Part shown: positions 8,686 to 40,842 of the stretch, piece after piece
Numbering within the stretch: position 1 is the first letter of the stretch
How the letters are laid out: the number at the start of each line of letters is the position of its first letter
Assembly: GCA_016198275.1 (NCBI GenBank)
Contig: JACQIX010000023.1
Location: 1-44,829 of the forward strand
DNA: 44,829 nucleotides
From: Candidatus Daviesbacteria bacterium
Lineage (GTDB): Bacteria > Patescibacteriota > Microgenomatia > Daviesbacterales > UBA10151
Reading direction: 5' to 3'
Position numbers and translations under genes: made by a program
Notes under the pieces: generated by a model
Seen by the model: only the letters and a program-made list of their open reading frames with translations
Told to the model about the DNA's origin: nothing
Databases searched by the model: none

Positions 8686-9078
8686 TTACTTTTGTAATTT
8701 TGTCAGTTTAGGGATTTTTCCCCGATTAGTCAAATTCTTGAATACTGAGCCAGTCGAAGTATTTCTCCTTTTGCTTTTTCTAAAATAGCTGATTAAGAGA
8801 GTAACTGAAGTGATTATTAAACTTATCGTGACTATGTTTAAGGAATTTAATGCCTGCAATATTAGTGTAAAGATTAATGCTAAAGCAATGATTCCTGCAA
8901 GAAATAAATTTTTTAAAAAAAATTTTAGGGTTAAAGTGATTGCTAACAACAAAGGAATAAAAAAGAATAGAATTTGGGTTAAACTAGCCTGGGTGATCGT
9001 TTGGGGATAAGGGACCTGGAAAATTATCACTGCGAAACTGATCCAAAAAATCAAAGCTAAAATAGTTTGATATTTCAT
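8686..9078 (-). CDS. Small membrane protein, hypothetical
   Basis: 130 aa ORF with several TM segments. Confidence 0.55.
   Translation of the reverse strand: MKYQTILALIFWISFAVIIFQVPYPQTITQASLTQILFFFIPLLLAITLTLKFFLKNLFLAGIIALALIFTLILQALNSLNIVTISLIITSVTLLISYFRKSKRRNTSTGSVFKNLTNRGKIPKLTKLQK
8741..8763 (-). repeat. Inverted-repeat element inside small membrane protein gene
   Basis: Minus strand AATACTTCGACTGGCTCAGTATT with AATACT/AGTATT arms; encodes NTSTGSVF. Confidence 0.7.
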
Positions 9079-11767: not shown

Positions 11768-12982
11768 TTAATTTTCAAAAAGTTGAGCGGCATATTTTTC
11801 CAATTCTTGCTGTCTTTGCGGGGGATATTTTTTAAATTGAAAATATTTTCTTAAAGCATCAGTTGGGGTGAGAGTTTCCACCTGCTCTTTCCCATAAAAT
11901 CTGACTCTTTCTATTCTTTCGACATTTTTGGAAATTCCGGCAATAAAATTGGCTGAAGATAAGGCTTTTTTAATTTTATCCATCTGGATTTCTTTTTCGC
12001 AATCCCTGGGGATGTTGATAATAACTCTGACTATTTTGTCTTCGATCTGATGATTTTTTATTTCAGCCAGGATAGTTTGGGTAGGATCCGGGTCATTTCC
12101 TTTTAAATCAACAGTGATTGTTAGAAACTGGCGGGCATTAGTGGTCAGAAATTGAAAAGTTACTTCATAGTTGTTGTGCATGTGCGAGAGATTTTTCGTT
12201 TCACTCAGAGTGACAATTATAATTCCTTTTTCTTCTTTTTCTTCTCCAAAATCTATTCTTTGAGGGGAGCCGGAATAAACAATCAGCGGGTTTTTCCCTA
12301 AAACCTGATGTTTATGAATATGTCCTAAAGCCACATAACTAAGTTTCTTATCTTGCAGTAAAGGTAAGGGGATGGTTACATCATTGGCAATCGCCAACCC
12401 TTTTTCCGACCCATAAGCAGCTCCCTCCACTTCGGTATGTGATAAAAGGATGGCAGGGGAGTTGGTAGTGATTTGATCATACAACAGTTTTAATTTTTCA
12501 GCAATAGTTTTATAGTCATTTTTATGCAGCCAGGGCAAAGTGACAATTTGTAAAATTCCTGATTTGGTGGGGATGTTTAAAAGCTCAGGTTTTCTGGATA
12601 CCCAGACATTGTCTATTTCCAAGGCCGAATAAATATCCAAAGTATTGGCTTTACCTTCGGCATTGGGAGTATCATGATTTCCCACAACCAAAACTACTGG
12701 TATTTTTTTAGCCAAGCGTCTGATTCTTTCACCAAAGCCTCTTTGCTGGGTGGGATTTGGATCACGGGTTTTATAGGCATCTCCGGCAAAAACTACGGCG
12801 TCAACCTCTTCCTCAAAAGCCTTTTCTAAAATAAAATCAAAAGTTTTAAAAAAATCCAAAAGACGGGTGGAAAGCCCGGTTTTCGGATCCAATTTGGTAT
12901 AATTTTCCATGCCGATATGTAAGTCTGAGAAGTGGAGAAGTTTCATTGGAGAAATTATATCTGAGCAACAACCATTTGACAA
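11768..12982 (-). CDS. sbcD: SbcD/Mre11-type exonuclease
   Basis: LLHFSDLHIGM, FAGDAYKTRDPNP, VVGNHDTPN, ALGHIHKHQV motifs; start may be the internal MKLLHFSDLH. Confidence 0.93.
   Translation of the reverse strand: MSNGCCSDIISPMKLLHFSDLHIGMENYTKLDPKTGLSTRLLDFFKTFDFILEKAFEEEVDAVVFAGDAYKTRDPNPTQQRGFGERIRRLAKKIPVVLVVGNHDTPNAEGKANTLDIYSALEIDNVWVSRKPELLNIPTKSGILQIVTLPWLHKNDYKTIAEKLKLLYDQITTNSPAILLSHTEVEGAAYGSEKGLAIANDVTIPLPLLQDKKLSYVALGHIHKHQVLGKNPLIVYSGSPQRIDFGEEKEEKGIIIVTLSETKNLSHMHNNYEVTFQFLTTNARQFLTITVDLKGNDPDPTQTILAEIKNHQIEDKIVRVIINIPRDCEKEIQMDKIKKALSSANFIAGISKNVERIERVRFYGKEQVETLTPTDALRKYFQFKKYPPQRQQELEKYAAQLFEN
12188..12214 (-). repeat. Dispersed repeat inside sbcD
   Basis: Minus strand GTCACTCTGAGTGAAACGAAAAATCTC; 21/27 identical to 37858-37884. 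Confidence 0.85.
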
Positions 12983-13042: not shown

Positions 13043-13324
13043 ATGGCTGAAAAATTTCTCGATAAATTTGGAGAAGATAGAGAAGGTTTTTATAACCTAG
13101 CTCAAAACACATTAACCGGTGAAAAATTCAGGCCCTTTGATTTTGACAGCAGAGAAGAGAAAGATAAACTGGTGGTGGAGAGTAGAAAGACAGTGGCAAT
13201 GAGAACAGGTGAAATTCCCTGTCCGATACCTGATCCCAGAAGGGAAGGTAAACATTTAGGACCAAGAAAACCTCGTGAAGGTCATCACAAAGATCCAGAT
13301 ACCGGAAGAAGAGCCCCATTTTAA
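13043..13324 (+). CDS. Small charged hypothetical protein
   Basis: 93 aa ORF with plausible upstream spacing; no recognised domain. Confidence 0.5.
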   Translation: MAEKFLDKFGEDREGFYNLAQNTLTGEKFRPFDFDSREEKDKLVVESRKTVAMRTGEIPCPIPDPRREGKHLGPRKPREGHHKDPDTGRRAPF

Positions 13325-13343
13325 AATTGCCACGACTGGTACA

Positions 13344-14468
13344 ATGGGTGTCATGTTTAACCTTAGACTCCAAAAACTTCGGGAAAAATTAAAAAAGGCA
13401 AACTTGGGGGCAGTATTAATTGCTGATGTTGCCAATATTACTTATTTAACAGGCTATGAGAATTTTTCTCTCTACGAAAGAGAAGCTTATTTGCTAGTTG
13501 GTGGTAATTTCCAATATATTATCACTGACGGTAGGTATTCTGAGGTTATAAAAAAACAAGTCCCCCACTTTAAGCTTTTCGAAAGGAGTCACCAAAACCC
13601 GACTGAAAAATTATTTCAGGATTTAAAAAAGCAAATTAAAATTTTGGGCATTGAAGAAAATGAACTAACAGTTTTAGAGTACAAATCATTGACTAAACAC
13701 TTTCAAAAAACCAAACATTTTGATACTGATAAATTAAGAAATATCAAGACTGATCAAGAAATCAAAAAAATAGCCAAAGCCTGTAAGTTGGGAGATTTAG
13801 CCTTTAAATACATTTTAAAAAAAATTAAATTTGGGATCACTGAGGAAGAAATTGCCAATGAATTGGAAAAATTTATTAAACAAGAAGGGGCTCAACTTTC
13901 ATTTCCTCCAATTGTAGCTTTTGGTAAAAATTCATCTATCCCTCATCATCAGACGGGAAACACCAAAATAGGTCCTTCGACTCGCTTCGCTCGCTCAGGA
14001 CGAGAAGGACTAATCATACTTCTCGATTTCGGCGTGAAATTTGAAAATTATTGTTCTGATATGACCAGAACGACTTTCTTTGGTTCTCCTTCAATTAAAC
14101 AAAGAGAAATTTATCAGACAGTTTTGGTAGCCCAACATGAAGCTATAAAGTTTTTAAATAACCAAATAAAATTTGGCAAAAAAATCACAGGTGCAATGGT
14201 AGATAAAATAGCCAGAAATTATATTATCGAAAAAGGTTACTCCTCCATCCCGCATTCTTTGGGCCATGGTATAGGGTTAAAAGTTCATGAGCACCCTTCC
14301 GTCTCGCCTAAAAGCAAAGATGAATTAATAGAAGGGATGGTTTTTTCTATAGAACCTGGAATATATATACCTGATTTAGGTGGAGTAAGGATAGAGGATT
14401 TATTTGTTTTGGAAAAAACAGGTTTGAGACAATTGACTACTTCCGCAAAAGAGATAATTCAGTTATAA
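13344..14468 (+). CDS. Xaa-Pro aminopeptidase (M24 family)
   Basis: Creatinase-type N-domain and M24 motifs (LDFGVKFENYCSDMTRT, HSLGHGIGLKVHEHP, GMVFSIEPGIY); the track ORF starts at 13275 but the Met at 13344 is a more likely start. Confidence 0.9.
   Translation: MGVMFNLRLQKLREKLKKANLGAVLIADVANITYLTGYENFSLYEREAYLLVGGNFQYIITDGRYSEVIKKQVPHFKLFERSHQNPTEKLFQDLKKQIKILGIEENELTVLEYKSLTKHFQKTKHFDTDKLRNIKTDQEIKKIAKACKLGDLAFKYILKKIKFGITEEEIANELEKFIKQEGAQLSFPPIVAFGKNSSIPHHQTGNTKIGPSTRFARSGREGLIILLDFGVKFENYCSDMTRTTFFGSPSIKQREIYQTVLVAQHEAIKFLNNQIKFGKKITGAMVDKIARNYIIEKGYSSIPHSLGHGIGLKVHEHPSVSPKSKDELIEGMVFSIEPGIYIPDLGGVRIEDLFVLEKTGLRQLTTSAKEIIQL
13972..14010 (+). repeat. Inverted-repeat element inside Xaa-Pro aminopeptidase gene
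   Basis: gtccttcgactcgcttcgctcgctcaggacgagaaggac; 28-nt core matches 24/28 to 40571-40598 reversed. Confidence 0.9.
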
Positions 14469-18593: not shown

Positions 18594-18611
18594 CCAGGCA
18601 AAATTAATTTT

Positions 18612-19373
18612 ATGCAAAAAGGGTTTGTGCCGCTAGTATTTATTCTAATCATTAGTGTTTTATCGGTAGGGATTGTTGGTGGGGTTTGGTATTACAAATC
18701 TTTAACAAATATTGATCTAACTCATCCTCCTGAAGTTAAAAGGCAAAATAATGATTCTGTTGTAGTAAATGAAACTGATAATTGGAAGGTGTATAAAAGT
18801 CAGGAATATAATTTTGAGATAAAATATCCACCGACGGTGAATATTAAAGAGGAAGAGATTGTAGATCCTGGACAAATTTATAATAAATCGCATGTGTATT
18901 TTGAAATTGATGGAGGAAGGCTCGAGATTTATGGGGTATGTGGGAGAGGAATTCAGCCGATTAAAAATAAAGAAATAACAATCGCAGATCAAAAGACGAT
19001 TAAGTTTTATGAAACAGAAGATAAAGGGGCAATAAAAGCTATTAATAGACCGAATTCTGATGAGTCGATTTGTTTTGGTTTTACTTTGCCGAGTAATCCA
19101 AAAAAGACAGAAGAGGTAGATAAACTATTTGATCAAATGCTTTCGACTTTTAAGTTTTTAGAGGGAAAAACGGTGTCTTGGGAAGAGGCGGTTAGGATAC
19201 TAAACAGCGGACAGGTAACCGGAACATTTCAGACACATGCACTAGATGTCATTTTATATCTAAAAGATGGTAGTGAGACAAAGACAAAGGAACCAAGAAT
19301 TGATGAAATACATCGGGAGATAGAAAAGTGTAGCGTCTGTAAAAAAGGTGAATTTATGATATCTACAGAGTAG
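18612..19373 (+). CDS. Membrane-anchored hypothetical protein (array paralogue 2)
   Basis: MQKGFVPLVFILIISVLSVGIVGG leader; DNWKVYKSQEYNFEIKYPP motif; C-terminal EKCSVCKKGEF. Confidence 0.78.
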   Translation: MQKGFVPLVFILIISVLSVGIVGGVWYYKSLTNIDLTHPPEVKRQNNDSVVVNETDNWKVYKSQEYNFEIKYPPTVNIKEEEIVDPGQIYNKSHVYFEIDGGRLEIYGVCGRGIQPIKNKEITIADQKTIKFYETEDKGAIKAINRPNSDESICFGFTLPSNPKKTEEVDKLFDQMLSTFKFLEGKTVSWEEAVRILNSGQVTGTFQTHALDVILYLKDGSETKTKEPRIDEIHREIEKCSVCKKGEFMISTE

Positions 19374-19951: not shown

Positions 19952-19992
19952 CTCCATTTCTTCTGTATATATTTTCTGATACTATAAATTTA

Positions 19993-21006
19993 ATGCAAAA
20001 AGGATTTGCCTCCCTAGTGTTTATTCTAATCATTAGTGTTTTATCGGTAGGGATTGTGGGTGGAGCATGGTTTTATAAAAATAAATATTTAGAAAAGTTA
20101 CAGCCGGAGGATAAGTCTGACATTATTGCAAGTATTCCTAATACATCCATTCCGGTAACTAGCTTGGAAAATATTGCCGATTGGAAGGTGTACAAGGATG
20201 AAATTTTTTCCCTTCAATATCCGCCTGATTGGGAACTAAAAGAGAATAAGGATGAAGTATTTCGGGAAGTTTATAATCCGAAAACTATTATCAGCGTTGG
20301 AAGTAATGGTTATGTTACAGCTATAGAGATGTTACCTTTTTCTGTTGAGCCTGATTTGAGAACAACGGATGGAGCCTCCCCTGTAGATATAATAGGTTTA
20401 CATTTATCATTTATAGATTTTACTAAAGCTAAAAAGGTTGATTTAAGCGGTAGATTAATTGACGCTTTATTTTATGATGACGGTTGGAATGTAATTTTTT
20501 CTGATGGAAAAAATCTTGTGATCTTTGGGCCACTGGTAGATGATCTCTCTGACGGTAGCCAAATTGAGAATAAGATTTTATCGACTCTTAAATTTACGAA
20601 GATATATAAAGGGCCTTTAGAGACAAAATATAGAGGACGGTCTACATCCTTTCACATCCCGAGGGGTTATACAGGATCAATTACTAATAATAAAATTGGA
20701 TCAGCTATTGAAGAGGAAGGTCATTTTAAAAATGAAAGTGAAAATATAGAGGTTTTTTATCAAGTTACAAGTTCACCGCTACCCTTAAAGTCTGACAGTT
20801 CTGCGAAACGCATATTAATTGATAACGAGTCAGGATTAAGAAGAGTTATATTAGCAGGTGTAGGTGCAGACATCTATCAACCACAAATAGAAGTAAATTA
20901 TCATAATAAGGGATATGTGATATATGTATCTACTGTTTGGAATGAAGTCCAAAATAAAAAAGCTGATGTGGTACTTGATGAAATTATTAGAACGTTTAGT
21001 TTTTGA
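19993..21006 (+). CDS. Membrane-anchored PsbP-like hypothetical protein (array paralogue 3)
   Basis: MQKGFASLVFILIISVLSVGIVGG leader; ADWKVYKDEIFSLQYPPDWELKEN; KILSTLKF. Confidence 0.78.
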   Translation: MQKGFASLVFILIISVLSVGIVGGAWFYKNKYLEKLQPEDKSDIIASIPNTSIPVTSLENIADWKVYKDEIFSLQYPPDWELKENKDEVFREVYNPKTIISVGSNGYVTAIEMLPFSVEPDLRTTDGASPVDIIGLHLSFIDFTKAKKVDLSGRLIDALFYDDGWNVIFSDGKNLVIFGPLVDDLSDGSQIENKILSTLKFTKIYKGPLETKYRGRSTSFHIPRGYTGSITNNKIGSAIEEEGHFKNESENIEVFYQVTSSPLPLKSDSSAKRILIDNESGLRRVILAGVGADIYQPQIEVNYHNKGYVIYVSTVWNEVQNKKADVVLDEIIRTFSF

Positions 21007-21016
21007 GTTTTATAAT

Positions 21017-21751
21017 ATGCAAAAAGGGTTTATTAGTCCGATATTAATGTTATCAATAGTTGGGGTTTTGTTTTTGGCGATTTCTTTGGGGTATTACTTG
21101 GGTAAAGGAGGTATTGATCAACCATTAGGAGGCGAGCTAAAAGATAGCCGCGAAATTAATAGTATTGATAAAGATGAACCAGAAAGTACTATTACTTCTC
21201 CCGCGCCTTTAAATAATCAACCAACAGTTAATAAACCAGAGGCAAGCAAAGTGAAAAGTGAAAAGATTTTATATAATGCAATGCCGACTTGGCAGACATA
21301 TACCGATACCGAGGCGAAATTTCTAATCCAATATCCGGAAAATTTTAGTATACCTATATCGGGTAAAGGAAAAGCAGTTGATTTTAGAATAAAAGATCCA
21401 GAAAGTATTTTTTGTATACCAGGCTTTGAAGCCGGGGGATGTTTAAGTGGTTATATTGTGTTGATTAATGATTATGATGGTAGTTCAAGAAGGGAGTGGT
21501 TTAAGAAAAAGAATCCGGGTGTGATTAGTCGACATGAGATAAAAGAATTTGAAATTAGCGGAGCGGGCTCGTTGTTGATTTTTAATCAGGAGTTTGGTGA
21601 TCCTTTGGGAGCGGTAGCGTTAATCCCAAGAGGTAATAAGATGTTTGTAATTTACTTTTACTTTTCCTCCGAAAAAGGAAATGGTAATGATGTGATAGAT
21701 GATAGGTTAAGTCATCTTAAAAATATACTCTCCACTTTCAAATTTTTATGA
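21017..21751 (+). CDS. Membrane-anchored PsbP-like hypothetical protein (array paralogue 4)
   Basis: Internal start MQKGFISPILMLSIVGVLFLAISLG within track ORF 20924..21751; PTWQTYTDTEAKFLIQYPENF; C-terminal NILSTFKFL. Confidence 0.77.
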   Translation: MQKGFISPILMLSIVGVLFLAISLGYYLGKGGIDQPLGGELKDSREINSIDKDEPESTITSPAPLNNQPTVNKPEASKVKSEKILYNAMPTWQTYTDTEAKFLIQYPENFSIPISGKGKAVDFRIKDPESIFCIPGFEAGGCLSGYIVLINDYDGSSRREWFKKKNPGVISRHEIKEFEISGAGSLLIFNQEFGDPLGAVALIPRGNKMFVIYFYFSSEKGNGNDVIDDRLSHLKNILSTFKFL

Positions 21752-22380
21752 AGCAAAAAGGGTTTGTACCTTTAGTTTTTATTTTAATTATTGGAGTTTT
21801 ATCAGTGGCAATTGTTGGGGGAAACTTTTATATCAGAAGTACTTCCAAAGACAAATCCTGGACTTATAAGCAGTCATCTTCCATTAATTCACCCAAAGAG
21901 ACAACAATTAATGAATCGTATACTCCAGAGTTAAAGAAAAAGATAGGGACTTCTACAAAGACAATTGATGGTTGGAAAATTTATAAGAATCCCTCTCTAG
22001 GTGTAGAATTTCAATACCCTTTAGATGGATATATCGAAGGGGAGAACAGTTCTAGCGTTGTTTTAAGACTTCCATATAGACCCAAAGGACAGGTATTAGA
22101 TATACAGATATGGTTTATAAAAAATAATATTGTTTACTACCCTAGTTACCAAAAATATGGTGAATGTAACGAGAATGACGAGTACTATCAGATGTACAAG
22201 ATTTATAAGGAGTTTTGTTGGGAAAAAATAGTAATTGACGGAGTAGATGTGGAATCTTTAGTGGGTGAGTATTTTTATTATATTCCAAGCTTGAAGTTGG
22301 AGATAAAACCTGATTCTAATATTTATCGGAGAAAAGAGGACCTTGAAAAGATAATAAATTCGGTTACTTTTTTAAAGTAG
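21748..22380 (+). CDS. Membrane-anchored hypothetical protein (array paralogue 5)
   Basis: MKQKGFVPLVFILIIGVLSVAIVGG leader; DGWKIYKNPSLGVEFQYPLDGY; overlaps the previous stop (ATGA). Confidence 0.77.
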   Translation: MKQKGFVPLVFILIIGVLSVAIVGGNFYIRSTSKDKSWTYKQSSSINSPKETTINESYTPELKKKIGTSTKTIDGWKIYKNPSLGVEFQYPLDGYIEGENSSSVVLRLPYRPKGQVLDIQIWFIKNNIVYYPSYQKYGECNENDEYYQMYKIYKEFCWEKIVIDGVDVESLVGEYFYYIPSLKLEIKPDSNIYRRKEDLEKIINSVTFLK

Positions 22381-22410
22381 ATAGATATCTACGAATTTTG
22401 TACTCCAACC
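22372..22410 (-). pseudogene. Vestigial 3' end of a 3D-domain protein gene (tail copy B)
   Basis: Minus strand reads GWSTKFVDIYLL*; same tail as copy A and the intact gene. Confidence 0.7.
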
Positions 22411-22439
22411 CTTCGGCAGGCTCAGGACTTTCGTGCACG

Positions 22440-23138
22440 CTAGTTTATTAAATAAATGTCAATGAAGCGTGCACTCCAGCCCGCAGTTCTGGCGTCATCA
22501 AAGCCGAGGTCGATGATGTTGCCTTTGATAGCCCCGCCTGTATCCCCGGCAACTGCCATGCCATAACCTGGGATATAGATTTTGGAGCTAAGTTTAATTA
22601 CCGAAGGGTCAACAGCAATAACGCCTTTTCCTGCTTTCATGCCAGTGGCAGTCCATTCATTGCATCCAGGGCATCTTGAATCATAATGAGTAGCATAGAC
22701 CCGCATTTTTTTCCAATACTGTATTGATCCGCCCGGAGTATCCAAATTTTTCCATACAATTTTTGTCCCCCGCAAAATCTTTTTATCTTTTGGCTGGATA
22801 GTTTCCAAGGAGACAATTTCCCTGGCGTATTCTTCATCATCATTAGAATATATAATTTTGATGATTTTTACTTTTTTGCCATCCTCTCCTTCGTCTAGGA
22901 TTTTTTCCTCACCGGCCTCTGTTTCGGGATCATCTTCAAAAATGGTTTTTTTAGGCAAAACCTCTGTTTCTTCCTGCAATTTTTCAGTGAAAGAGGACTG
23001 AGTAGTAATTGATTGGTTGATAGGCAGGGTTTGAGTTGGAGAAGGGGTAGATTCTCCTAAAACTGATGGTGGTTGGAGGATGCTTTTGGCAAAAGCTGTG
23101 AGAATAATTATTAATATAATTCCGAGATAACGCTCCAT
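22440..23138 (-). CDS. G5/3D-domain cell-wall-associated protein (YabE/Rpf-like architecture)
   Basis: N-terminal TM, G5-like segment (REIVSLETIQPKDKKILRGTKI), 3D-like domain (MRVYATHYDSRCPGCNEWTATGMKAGKGVIAVDPSVIKLSSKIYIPGYGMAVAGDTGGAIKGNIIDLGF). Confidence 0.85.
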   Translation of the reverse strand: MERYLGIILIIILTAFAKSILQPPSVLGESTPSPTQTLPINQSITTQSSFTEKLQEETEVLPKKTIFEDDPETEAGEEKILDEGEDGKKVKIIKIIYSNDDEEYAREIVSLETIQPKDKKILRGTKIVWKNLDTPGGSIQYWKKMRVYATHYDSRCPGCNEWTATGMKAGKGVIAVDPSVIKLSSKIYIPGYGMAVAGDTGGAIKGNIIDLGFDDARTAGWSARFIDIYLIN

Positions 23139-37531: not shown

Positions 37532-38266
37532 TTAACTTCTAATTATTTGGCAGTTGGGGCATCTTAAGGAGGTATCAGCATAAATTTTAGCTGTTTGGTT
37601 AGATAATTTAAAGACTAACTGTGAATCCTCGTCTATGGTAAAAATATCAGGGCTGTTATCAAAAGATAAGGTGGCTTTGCCTCTGGTAAGCTGGAAAGTT
37701 ATCAAATCTTGATCAGAAAGATAAAGTGGATCAATTTTTTGAGTAGTATTATTAAAAGCTACCCCAAATCCTTTGTCAAATGTTTGGCGGGTGATTGATT
37801 GAAAATAACCTGTTGAGCCAAAAGGAGTGGAAATGACAATGCCATCACCTATAAGAAGAGATCCTTCGTTTCGCTCAACATGACTAACAGGGTGGGTTTT
37901 AAATCTGATGGTGTGAGTTGGGTCAGAATTTCTGATCACAAAATCATTTAAAGCATAAAAGGTTTTATAAAGCAATGTTATTTCGAGTTTTCTGTATTCT
38001 TTTAATTGAAGTTTGTCCTCTCTTAATTTTTTTAACACTAACTCATCAGCGTGATTGAGACATTTTTTACAAAAGTCACTGTTTCTGATAGGAAGTTTAG
38101 GGATGTTGGGATAATGCCTTTCTGCAGATAATAGGGTGCCATCCCCTCCAAAAGTAACCACAATCTGGGGGTTTGAATAAACAATCTCCAATCCTAAATC
38201 TTTGGCTAATTTTTCGATATTTTTAGTATTCTGACCGTTCAGTAAAACTCTCATGATGCAAATCAT
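37532..38266 (-). CDS. NAD kinase
   Basis: VTFGGDGTLLSAERHY, NDFVIRN, LLIGDGIVISTPFGSTGYFQS motifs; internal start MRVLLNGQN possible. Confidence 0.9.
   Translation of the reverse strand: MICIMRVLLNGQNTKNIEKLAKDLGLEIVYSNPQIVVTFGGDGTLLSAERHYPNIPKLPIRNSDFCKKCLNHADELVLKKLREDKLQLKEYRKLEITLLYKTFYALNDFVIRNSDPTHTIRFKTHPVSHVERNEGSLLIGDGIVISTPFGSTGYFQSITRQTFDKGFGVAFNNTTQKIDPLYLSDQDLITFQLTRGKATLSFDNSPDIFTIDEDSQLVFKLSNQTAKIYADTSLRCPNCQIIRS
37858..37884 (-). repeat. Dispersed repeat inside NAD kinase gene
   Basis: Minus strand GTCATGTTGAGCGAAACGAAGGATCTC. Confidence 0.85.
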
Positions 38267-40350: not shown

Positions 40351-40842
40351 ATGGGAAAAAAACAGGAAAAAACAAAAATAGAAGAATTAGAAAGTAAAGT
40401 TAATGATTTGGAGAATCAGCTAAAAAGAGCAGTGGCTGATTATCGGAATTTGGAATCTAGGATTAGTCAGGGTAGGTCTGAGTGGACTAAGTATGTAGGA
40501 GCAGAGATAATCAGAAAAATATTGCCGGCTTTGGACCATTTAGAAACAGTCATAGAATCAGGTCGGCAGGTCTTAAGCGAGCAAAGCGAGTCAAAGGATT
40601 GGTTTAGAGGAGTAGAGTTGGCTGTAAAGGAATTAAATCAGGTTTTAGCGCAGGAAGGTTTGGATCAGATTGCAGCAGACGGACAATTTGATCCAAACCT
40701 TCACGAGGCAGTTGACACAGGGGAGGGGGAAGATAATAAAATATTAAAAGTAGTCAGACGCGGGTATACCTTAGAAGGGAAGGTACTAAGACCAGCCCAG
40801 GTGGTGGTGGGACGATCAAACGAGAAAGGAGAAATTAGCTAA
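40351..40842 (+). CDS. grpE: Nucleotide exchange factor GrpE
   Basis: Coiled coil then [35 protein letters not shown]...[20 protein letters not shown]. Confidence 0.93.
40571..40598 (-). repeat. Repeat element inside grpE, same family as 13973-14000
   Basis: Minus strand TCCTTTGACTCGCTTTGCTCGCTTAAGA; 24/28 identity, all four differences are transitions. Confidence 0.88.

Follow-up and report, generated by a model that had tools for sequence, protein, structure and literature searches.

Two 27-nt segments of a Candidatus Daviesbacteria genome, one in the NAD kinase gene and the other in sbcD, very probably represent decayed copies of a single short palindromic element of REP-like type, which would be mobilised as a single-stranded DNA hairpin and would survive where it came to lie in frame in protein loops. 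The window referred to below is the whole stretch of DNA analysed (44,829 nucleotides), which is contig C2 of a 788-kb genome in 41 contigs, all of which were read. The two segments and their host genes are as follows.

37532..38266, minus strand: NAD kinase (NADK) gene (244 aa), with PDB sequence matches to NAD kinase 1 (E 3.8e-5)
37858..37884, minus strand: element copy in the NAD kinase gene, sequence GTCATGTTGAGCGAAACGAAGGATCTC, frame +2, peptide SHVERNEGS
11768..12982, minus strand: sbcD, gene for the nuclease subunit of SbcCD, a hairpin nuclease (Metallophos, PF00149, E 7.9e-16)
12188..12214, minus strand: element copy in sbcD, sequence GTCACTCTGAGTGAAACGAAAAATCTC, frame +0, peptide VTLSETKNL

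The NAD kinase ORF has no Pfam match at 1e-3, and the PDB matches of the SbcD ORF are to SbcD/Mre11 (E 1.4e-24). The original prediction placed the two segments at these positions in the same orientation, and both do lie on the minus strand; their identity of 21/27 was recomputed and holds, and their reading frames are indeed one base apart, giving VTLSETKNL in SbcD and (S)HVERNEGS in NAD kinase. Such a similarity could have arisen by chance between two unrelated coding stretches, and pairs of this quality are common: the window contains 82 direct pairs at 21/27 or better, versus 47 and 40 in Markov shuffles, and a repeat search of the window returned at least 60 families. The pair alone is not evidence, because it lies at the chance level, and it was rejected as such. 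The loose pattern TGAGYGAANNGAA was likewise not in excess over shuffles in the window.

The reality of the match comes from the family to which the segments belong, not from the pair. An over-representation scan of the genome found CCTGAGCGA and GTCGAAGGA in excess, together with other strings unrelated to the element (GTGTAGGTGTAG, CACCCCAAGGG and TAGTTGGTAGTT), and a scan for two half-sites gave 13 copies at 17/20 or better, versus none in shuffles. Against the consensus GTCATCCTGAGYGAAACGAAGGATCTC, which was derived in part from other genome copies after those of the window had been seen, the NADK copy scores 25/27, the top match in the genome, and the SbcD copy 23/27, whereas 20 shuffled genomes never gave a score above 20 of 27; when the loop base is ignored these values become 24/26 and 22/26, versus a maximum of 19 in 20 shuffled genomes. 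The independence of this consensus is supported by the recurrence of the exact string GTCATCCTGAGYGAARCGAAGGATCTC in other genomes. The concern raised with the original prediction, that random matches at 21/27 might be frequent, is thus borne out for the window, but both copies are still far beyond chance when compared with the consensus; the further concern that additional copies might not exist has no basis, since they were found in the genome, in relatives and in other phyla. Chance similarity is refuted by the consensus scores and by the fact that both segments are insertions relative to orthologues, and is very improbable.

Alignment with same-family orthologues, taken from a search of 57 genomes, identifies both segments as in-frame insertions. 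The NADK insertion, of about 8–9 residues, is lacking in most relatives (IRFKTHPVSHVERNEGSLLIGDG here versus IRFLANDKYFIGDG, IRFQANDGPLLIGDG and others); longer forms occupy the same turn in three relatives (SHPERSGGSRRVEGS, SHPERLRRHVGGVEGS and SHPERAKPFGSEPQGRRRVEGS), and a doublet is found there in one more distant genome. The AlphaFold model of NADK has a mean pLDDT of 89, and its sole segment below 50 consists of residues 128–132 of the insert, in the turn between strands 119–125 and 137–139; this predicted structure supports tolerance of the insert. Most SbcD relatives are uninterrupted at the corresponding site (KGICLVEIAKTTNFQF). Elements of the CTGAG type are present at the same valine codon in G009, G016 and G032, and G009 retains an intact form, ACTCTGAGTGAAACGAAGAGT. 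A few codons further on, the SbcD proteins of G023 (L234) and G015 (L248) carry an in-frame GTCATTGCGAG-type palindrome (SLRATAKQS) and that of G014 (L236) an in-frame GTCATTCCCGCG-type palindrome (VIPAEAGIQ), bringing the palindrome types in this loop to three, at positions a few codons apart; the two other types begin GTCATTGCGAGCGACAGCGAAGCAATC and GTCATTCCCGCGGAAGCGGGAATCC. The sbcD gene of G032 (L247/L252) shifts frame precisely where a truncated element lies (GTCACTCTGAGCGAAGCG then TTAATTT), which suggests a deletion at the hairpin.

The window contains further copies, two of them of a longer type in conserved genes and two that are possible degenerate copies with half-site scores within the chance range.

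13275..14468, plus strand: M24 metallopeptidase (Xaa-Pro type) gene (PF00557, E 1.5e-60; PF01321), host of a copy
13972..14001, minus strand: long-type copy GTCCTGAGCGAGCGAAGCGAGTCGAAGGAC, antisense in the M24 peptidase gene, 20/20 at the half-sites, peptide GPSTRFARSGR
40351..40842, plus strand: grpE gene (PF01025, E 1.5e-37), host of a copy
40570..40599, plus strand: long-type copy GTCTTAAGCGAGCAAAGCGAGTCAAAGGAT in grpE, frame +0, 10-residue peptide, 16/20 at the half-sites
8742..8762, plus strand: possible degenerate copy ATACTGAGCCAGTCGAAGTAT in a 130-aa ORF, 15/20 at the half-sites, within the chance range
22408..22428, minus strand: possible degenerate intergenic copy GTCCTGAGCCTGCCGAAGGGT between the ORFs 21748-22380 and 22440-23138, 15/20, within the chance range

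The M24 copy is common to G004, G014 and G015 and missing from other relatives; the grpE copy is present in G021, in an altered form in G015, and in no other relative. The net gain in GrpE is of four residues only, and part of the old loop was therefore replaced or lost. The insertions shown by orthologues are thus those in NADK, SbcD, GrpE and M24, each of them in frame and lacking in many orthologues. The window also contains three paralogous genes with near-identical signal/transmembrane starts (MQKGFVPLVFILIISVLSVGIVGG; 18603-18698, 19984-20079 and 21742-21837; 72–85% DNA identity).

Each gene might have received a single ancient insertion that was then inherited and diverged, rather than recurrent insertions into the same loop. 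The M24 and grpE copies, common to several genera, would fit such a history, a single clade of the insert-bearing NADK rows is not rejected (p 0.068), and this is among the readings favoured for RPE-4/6/7 of Rickettsia (PMC3767692). Against it stand the three distinct palindrome types in SbcD, the rejection of the insert-bearing SbcD rows as a single clade (p-AU 0.0007) and well-supported branches that force at least three changes. A clade of the four CTGAG-type SbcD rows is rejected less strongly (p 0.024), and one of G000 with G009 and G032 alone is not rejected (p 0.21). The comparison set holds no closely related strain pair in which a clean empty site could be seen. A single insertion per gene seems a somewhat unlikely but by no means negligible alternative.

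Coding status and reading frame were tabulated, as the original prediction had proposed, for a set of 87 confident copies drawn from this genome and from several relatives, mostly element-rich ones. About 31–32 of the 87 lie within ORFs of 150 aa or more, and the element is also found between genes; this split is approximate, because the coding calls are ORF-based. Five of the six frames are used: the internal coding copies number 15 in frame +0, five in frame +2 and one, four and six in the antisense frames, with none in frame +1, which is never used because the element closes it with its own TGA (TCA TCC TGA). Most host genes carry Pfam domains, and those confirmed in this way include GHMP kinase, amidase, ATP-grasp/citrate lyase, an EF-Tu-type GTPase, DNA ligase, ArgRS, ATP synthase gamma, MiaA, transketolase, glutamine amidotransferase, UvrA (two copies), UvrD (three copies) and MurB (two genomes). 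In G023, uvrA (L326) contains two elements and uvrD (L323) three, every one within open frames. The MurB copies lie near residues 138 and 141, in this genome (C24:4732-4755, L055) and in G027 (L347), and this region is likely to be a further hot spot.

A protein-level motif common to the hosts, such as a surface tag or linker peptide, could be sought in the predominance of frame +0 (VTLSETKxL / VILSExK), the commonest among internal coding copies. However, the peptides are wholly different according to frame and strand (HPERNEGS, ILRFAQDD, DPSLIAQDD and RSFASLRMT), copies occur in intergenic DNA and the pairing bases covary, making a shared peptide motif scarcely credible. Units with a length divisible by three were not significantly enriched among coding copies (17/21 versus 24/39, p 0.10).

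The consensus of the element is TGTC-ATCCTGAGYGAARCGAAGGAT-CTC. One strand can form a hairpin made up of the GTC tag, an ATCCT/AGGAT stem, a GA/GA tandem step, a G-C pair followed by a C-G or T-A pair, a GAA loop and the CTC tail, and there are longer forms with a second GA module. For the consensus, the DNA fold of lowest predicted energy has the same ATCCT/AGGAT stem, with a GA/GA internal loop, two pairs and a GAA loop. In the NADK copy this fold has been lost, both the stem (ATGT/GGAT) and the loop-closing pair (C-A) being degenerate. For DNA, the folding energies predicted are modest and not better than those of shuffles (z about -0.5 to 0.3, not significant); covariation is what supports the hairpin. 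In single-stranded DNA, tandem GA steps with a flanking pyrimidine and purine are unusually stable, as are GAA triloops that have a C-G closing pair. Sheared GA and GAA loops may be undervalued by the energy model, and the stability of these structures would single out the top strand as the one that is recognised.

Among copies chosen only by TGAG.GAA.CGAA, with both closing bases unconstrained, the loop-closing pair is T-A in 15, C-G in 11, C-A in one (NADK) and A-A in one, and the covariation of T/C with A/G has a Fisher p of 9e-7. The arms of copies selected on the core only include ATCC/GGAT, ATTC/GAAT, GTCC/GGAC, ATGC/GCAT, ACCC/GGGT and ATGT/ACAT; 10 of 41 distinct non-canonical arm combinations pair fully, versus a mean of 3.4 and a maximum of 9 in shuffles. 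This covariation could be due in part to two inherited subfamilies. The tag is TGTC in 72/87 copies and CGTC in 2/87 with a search pattern that included GTC; under core-only selection GTC is found in 26/28 copies, and the NADK copy itself has AGTC. The tails of the 87 copies are mostly CTC (37), ATA (20), CTA (13) or CTG (8), and close pairs are inverted with the tags outside in 13/13 cases.

Hairpin covariation suits RNA as well as DNA, and the element might act at the RNA level, as a terminator, mRNA stabiliser or regulatory hairpin, with the copies in genes as by-products; REPs are often close to gene ends and are thought to be transcribed (PMC3733652). However, copies in genes occur in both sense and antisense orientation, the consensus has no T-run and no Rfam family matches within the window, so that such a role is unlikely as an explanation.

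The element extends well beyond this genome. In 34 genomes of the family, there are about 235 matches to GTCATCCTGAGYGA at one mismatch, versus about nine for a reversed-pattern control. The exact string GTCATCCTGAGYGAARCGAAGGATCTC, which is the consensus with R for loop A, occurs in at least 119 stretches across many phyla, with record labels including Acidobacteria, Bacteroidales, Clostridia, Chloroflexi, Rickettsiales, Nitrospirales, Omnitrophica, Phycisphaerae, Verrucomicrobia, Gemmatimonadetes, one Methanoregulaceae archaeon MAG and others. Contamination of single bins is possible, because most of these records are MAGs, but it is unlikely to explain the whole spread, because the string is distributed over so many records. 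The DNA and peptide strings of the element gave no match in the literature collection searched. The conserved unit is DNA and not a protein motif, as the original prediction maintained, because the copies form a consensus family, the segments are insertions relative to orthologues, five frames are used, the stem bases covary, and copies are found between genes and across phyla. That interpretation is supported; the original account lacked the chance level of the 21/27 pair alone and the kind of element involved.

Movement or copying of the element would proceed through a hairpin of single-stranded DNA and depend on an enzyme acting in trans, probably a RAYT-like transposase of the HUH/Y1 kind. 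We infer mobilisation in trans because the anatomy is REP-like and Y1 transposases are common (RAYT-like Y1 transposases are encoded in 50 of 57 genomes), yet elements do not flank the Y1 genes, as is also the case for CGTC REPs. Y1_Tnp genes of this genome include those at C6:11396 and C33:6115, and G023 and G014 are among the element-rich relatives. A RAYT REPtron was rejected, since only one element was found in 102 kb around 32 Y1_Tnp loci, which is about background; this absence of a transposase link concerns the Y1_Tnp class only. Element counts show no obvious tracking of Y1_Tnp counts across genomes. Most landings within genes would be lost, and survival would be limited to insertions that keep the frame and fall in flexible surface loops; these would then drift as ordinary coding sequence, as seen in the broken stem of the NADK copy and the decay of one arm in sbcD, and the encoded peptide would be tolerated rather than selected.

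A bolder reading, which we hold tentatively and consider doubtful, is that a single 27-nt element that folds as single-stranded DNA, with its TGTC tag, tandem sheared GA and GAA triloop, is moving horizontally between phyla, possibly including an archaeon, by means of a trans-acting single-stranded DNA enzyme, and repeatedly re-enters permissive loops in housekeeping and DNA-repair genes, sbcD included, so that selfish hairpins continually seed new peptide loops in streamlined genomes. Protein-coding palindromes, best known in Rickettsia, are also common in small streamlined genomes that would be expected to purge selfish DNA, and several unrelated palindromes enter one loop of one gene. The presence of the exact element in many phyla provides a concrete substrate for seeking the missing enzyme of CGTC-type REPs, a question left by an earlier study (PMC3733652). 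For annotation, recurrent HPERNEGS, VILSETKNL or FAQDD peptides should be taken as translated repeats rather than motifs.

The element is a variant of known selfish palindromes (REP/RPE), a hairpin with a TGTC tag that is akin to CGTC REPs and to RPE-4/6/7 of Rickettsia. Features that look new are the tandem GA mismatch, the GAA loop, the CTC tail, the patescibacterial-type host and the exact identity of copies across phyla. The CGTC-tagged REP superfamily includes neisserial dRS3 and RPE-4/RPE-6 of Rickettsia (Di Nocera et al. 2013, PMC3733652), and its hosts are given as Proteobacteria, Chlorobi, Bacteroidetes, Spirochaetes and Thermotogae, Patescibacteria not being among them (PMC3733652). 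Like these REPs, the element has an unpaired TGTC/CGTC tag at one end, a stem starting A-T/T-A in most copies, a 3-nt tail and inverted doublets (correspondence to the HH/TT classes is not assigned), copies inside genes, some of them DNA-repair genes, and no associated transposase gene within the Y1_Tnp class examined. Unlike the 8–9 bp stem, 4–5 nt loop and CCA tail of CGTC REPs, it has 5 bp followed by a tandem GA and 2 bp, a loop that is a GAA triloop in its short form and varies in other forms, and a tail that is mostly CTC, ATA or CTA, and it is not filed in any of the four described CGTC families because stem, loop and tail differ. The anatomy resembles that of REPs whose mobilisation is ascribed to RAYT enzymes. 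CGTC REPs are without an associated transposase gene, and SbcCD removes hairpins (PMC3733652); the repeated use of sbcD as a landing site is suggestive in this respect, but may only reflect a tolerant loop. Intragenic REPs, repair-gene hosts, insertion at the same site and in-frame survival are known for CGTC REPs and RPE-4/6/7 (PMC3733652; PMC3767692).

The RPE-4/6/7 elements of Rickettsia and the WPE of Wolbachia (PMC3767692, PMC2229807) have an ATGAC (=GTCAT) motif at the palindrome end, and GTCAT corresponds to the tag and first stem bases of the consensus, retained in the NADK copy and read as GTCAC in the SbcD copy. They also share with the element in-frame insertion into conserved genes, solvent-exposed sites and the presence of different element types at one site. 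Compared by description, the RPE inserts listed differ in being 68–192 bp long, versus 27–36 nt for the unit here, with another core and an unrelated host. GTAG REPs and REPINs with RAYT (TnpA-REP) (PMC2817692, PMC6006769) are likewise short imperfect hairpins with a 5' unpaired tag and inverted doublets, and Y1 transposases are abundant in the genomes studied here, but the GTAG/GGAG foot is replaced by GTC(A) and the element does not flank Y1 genes.
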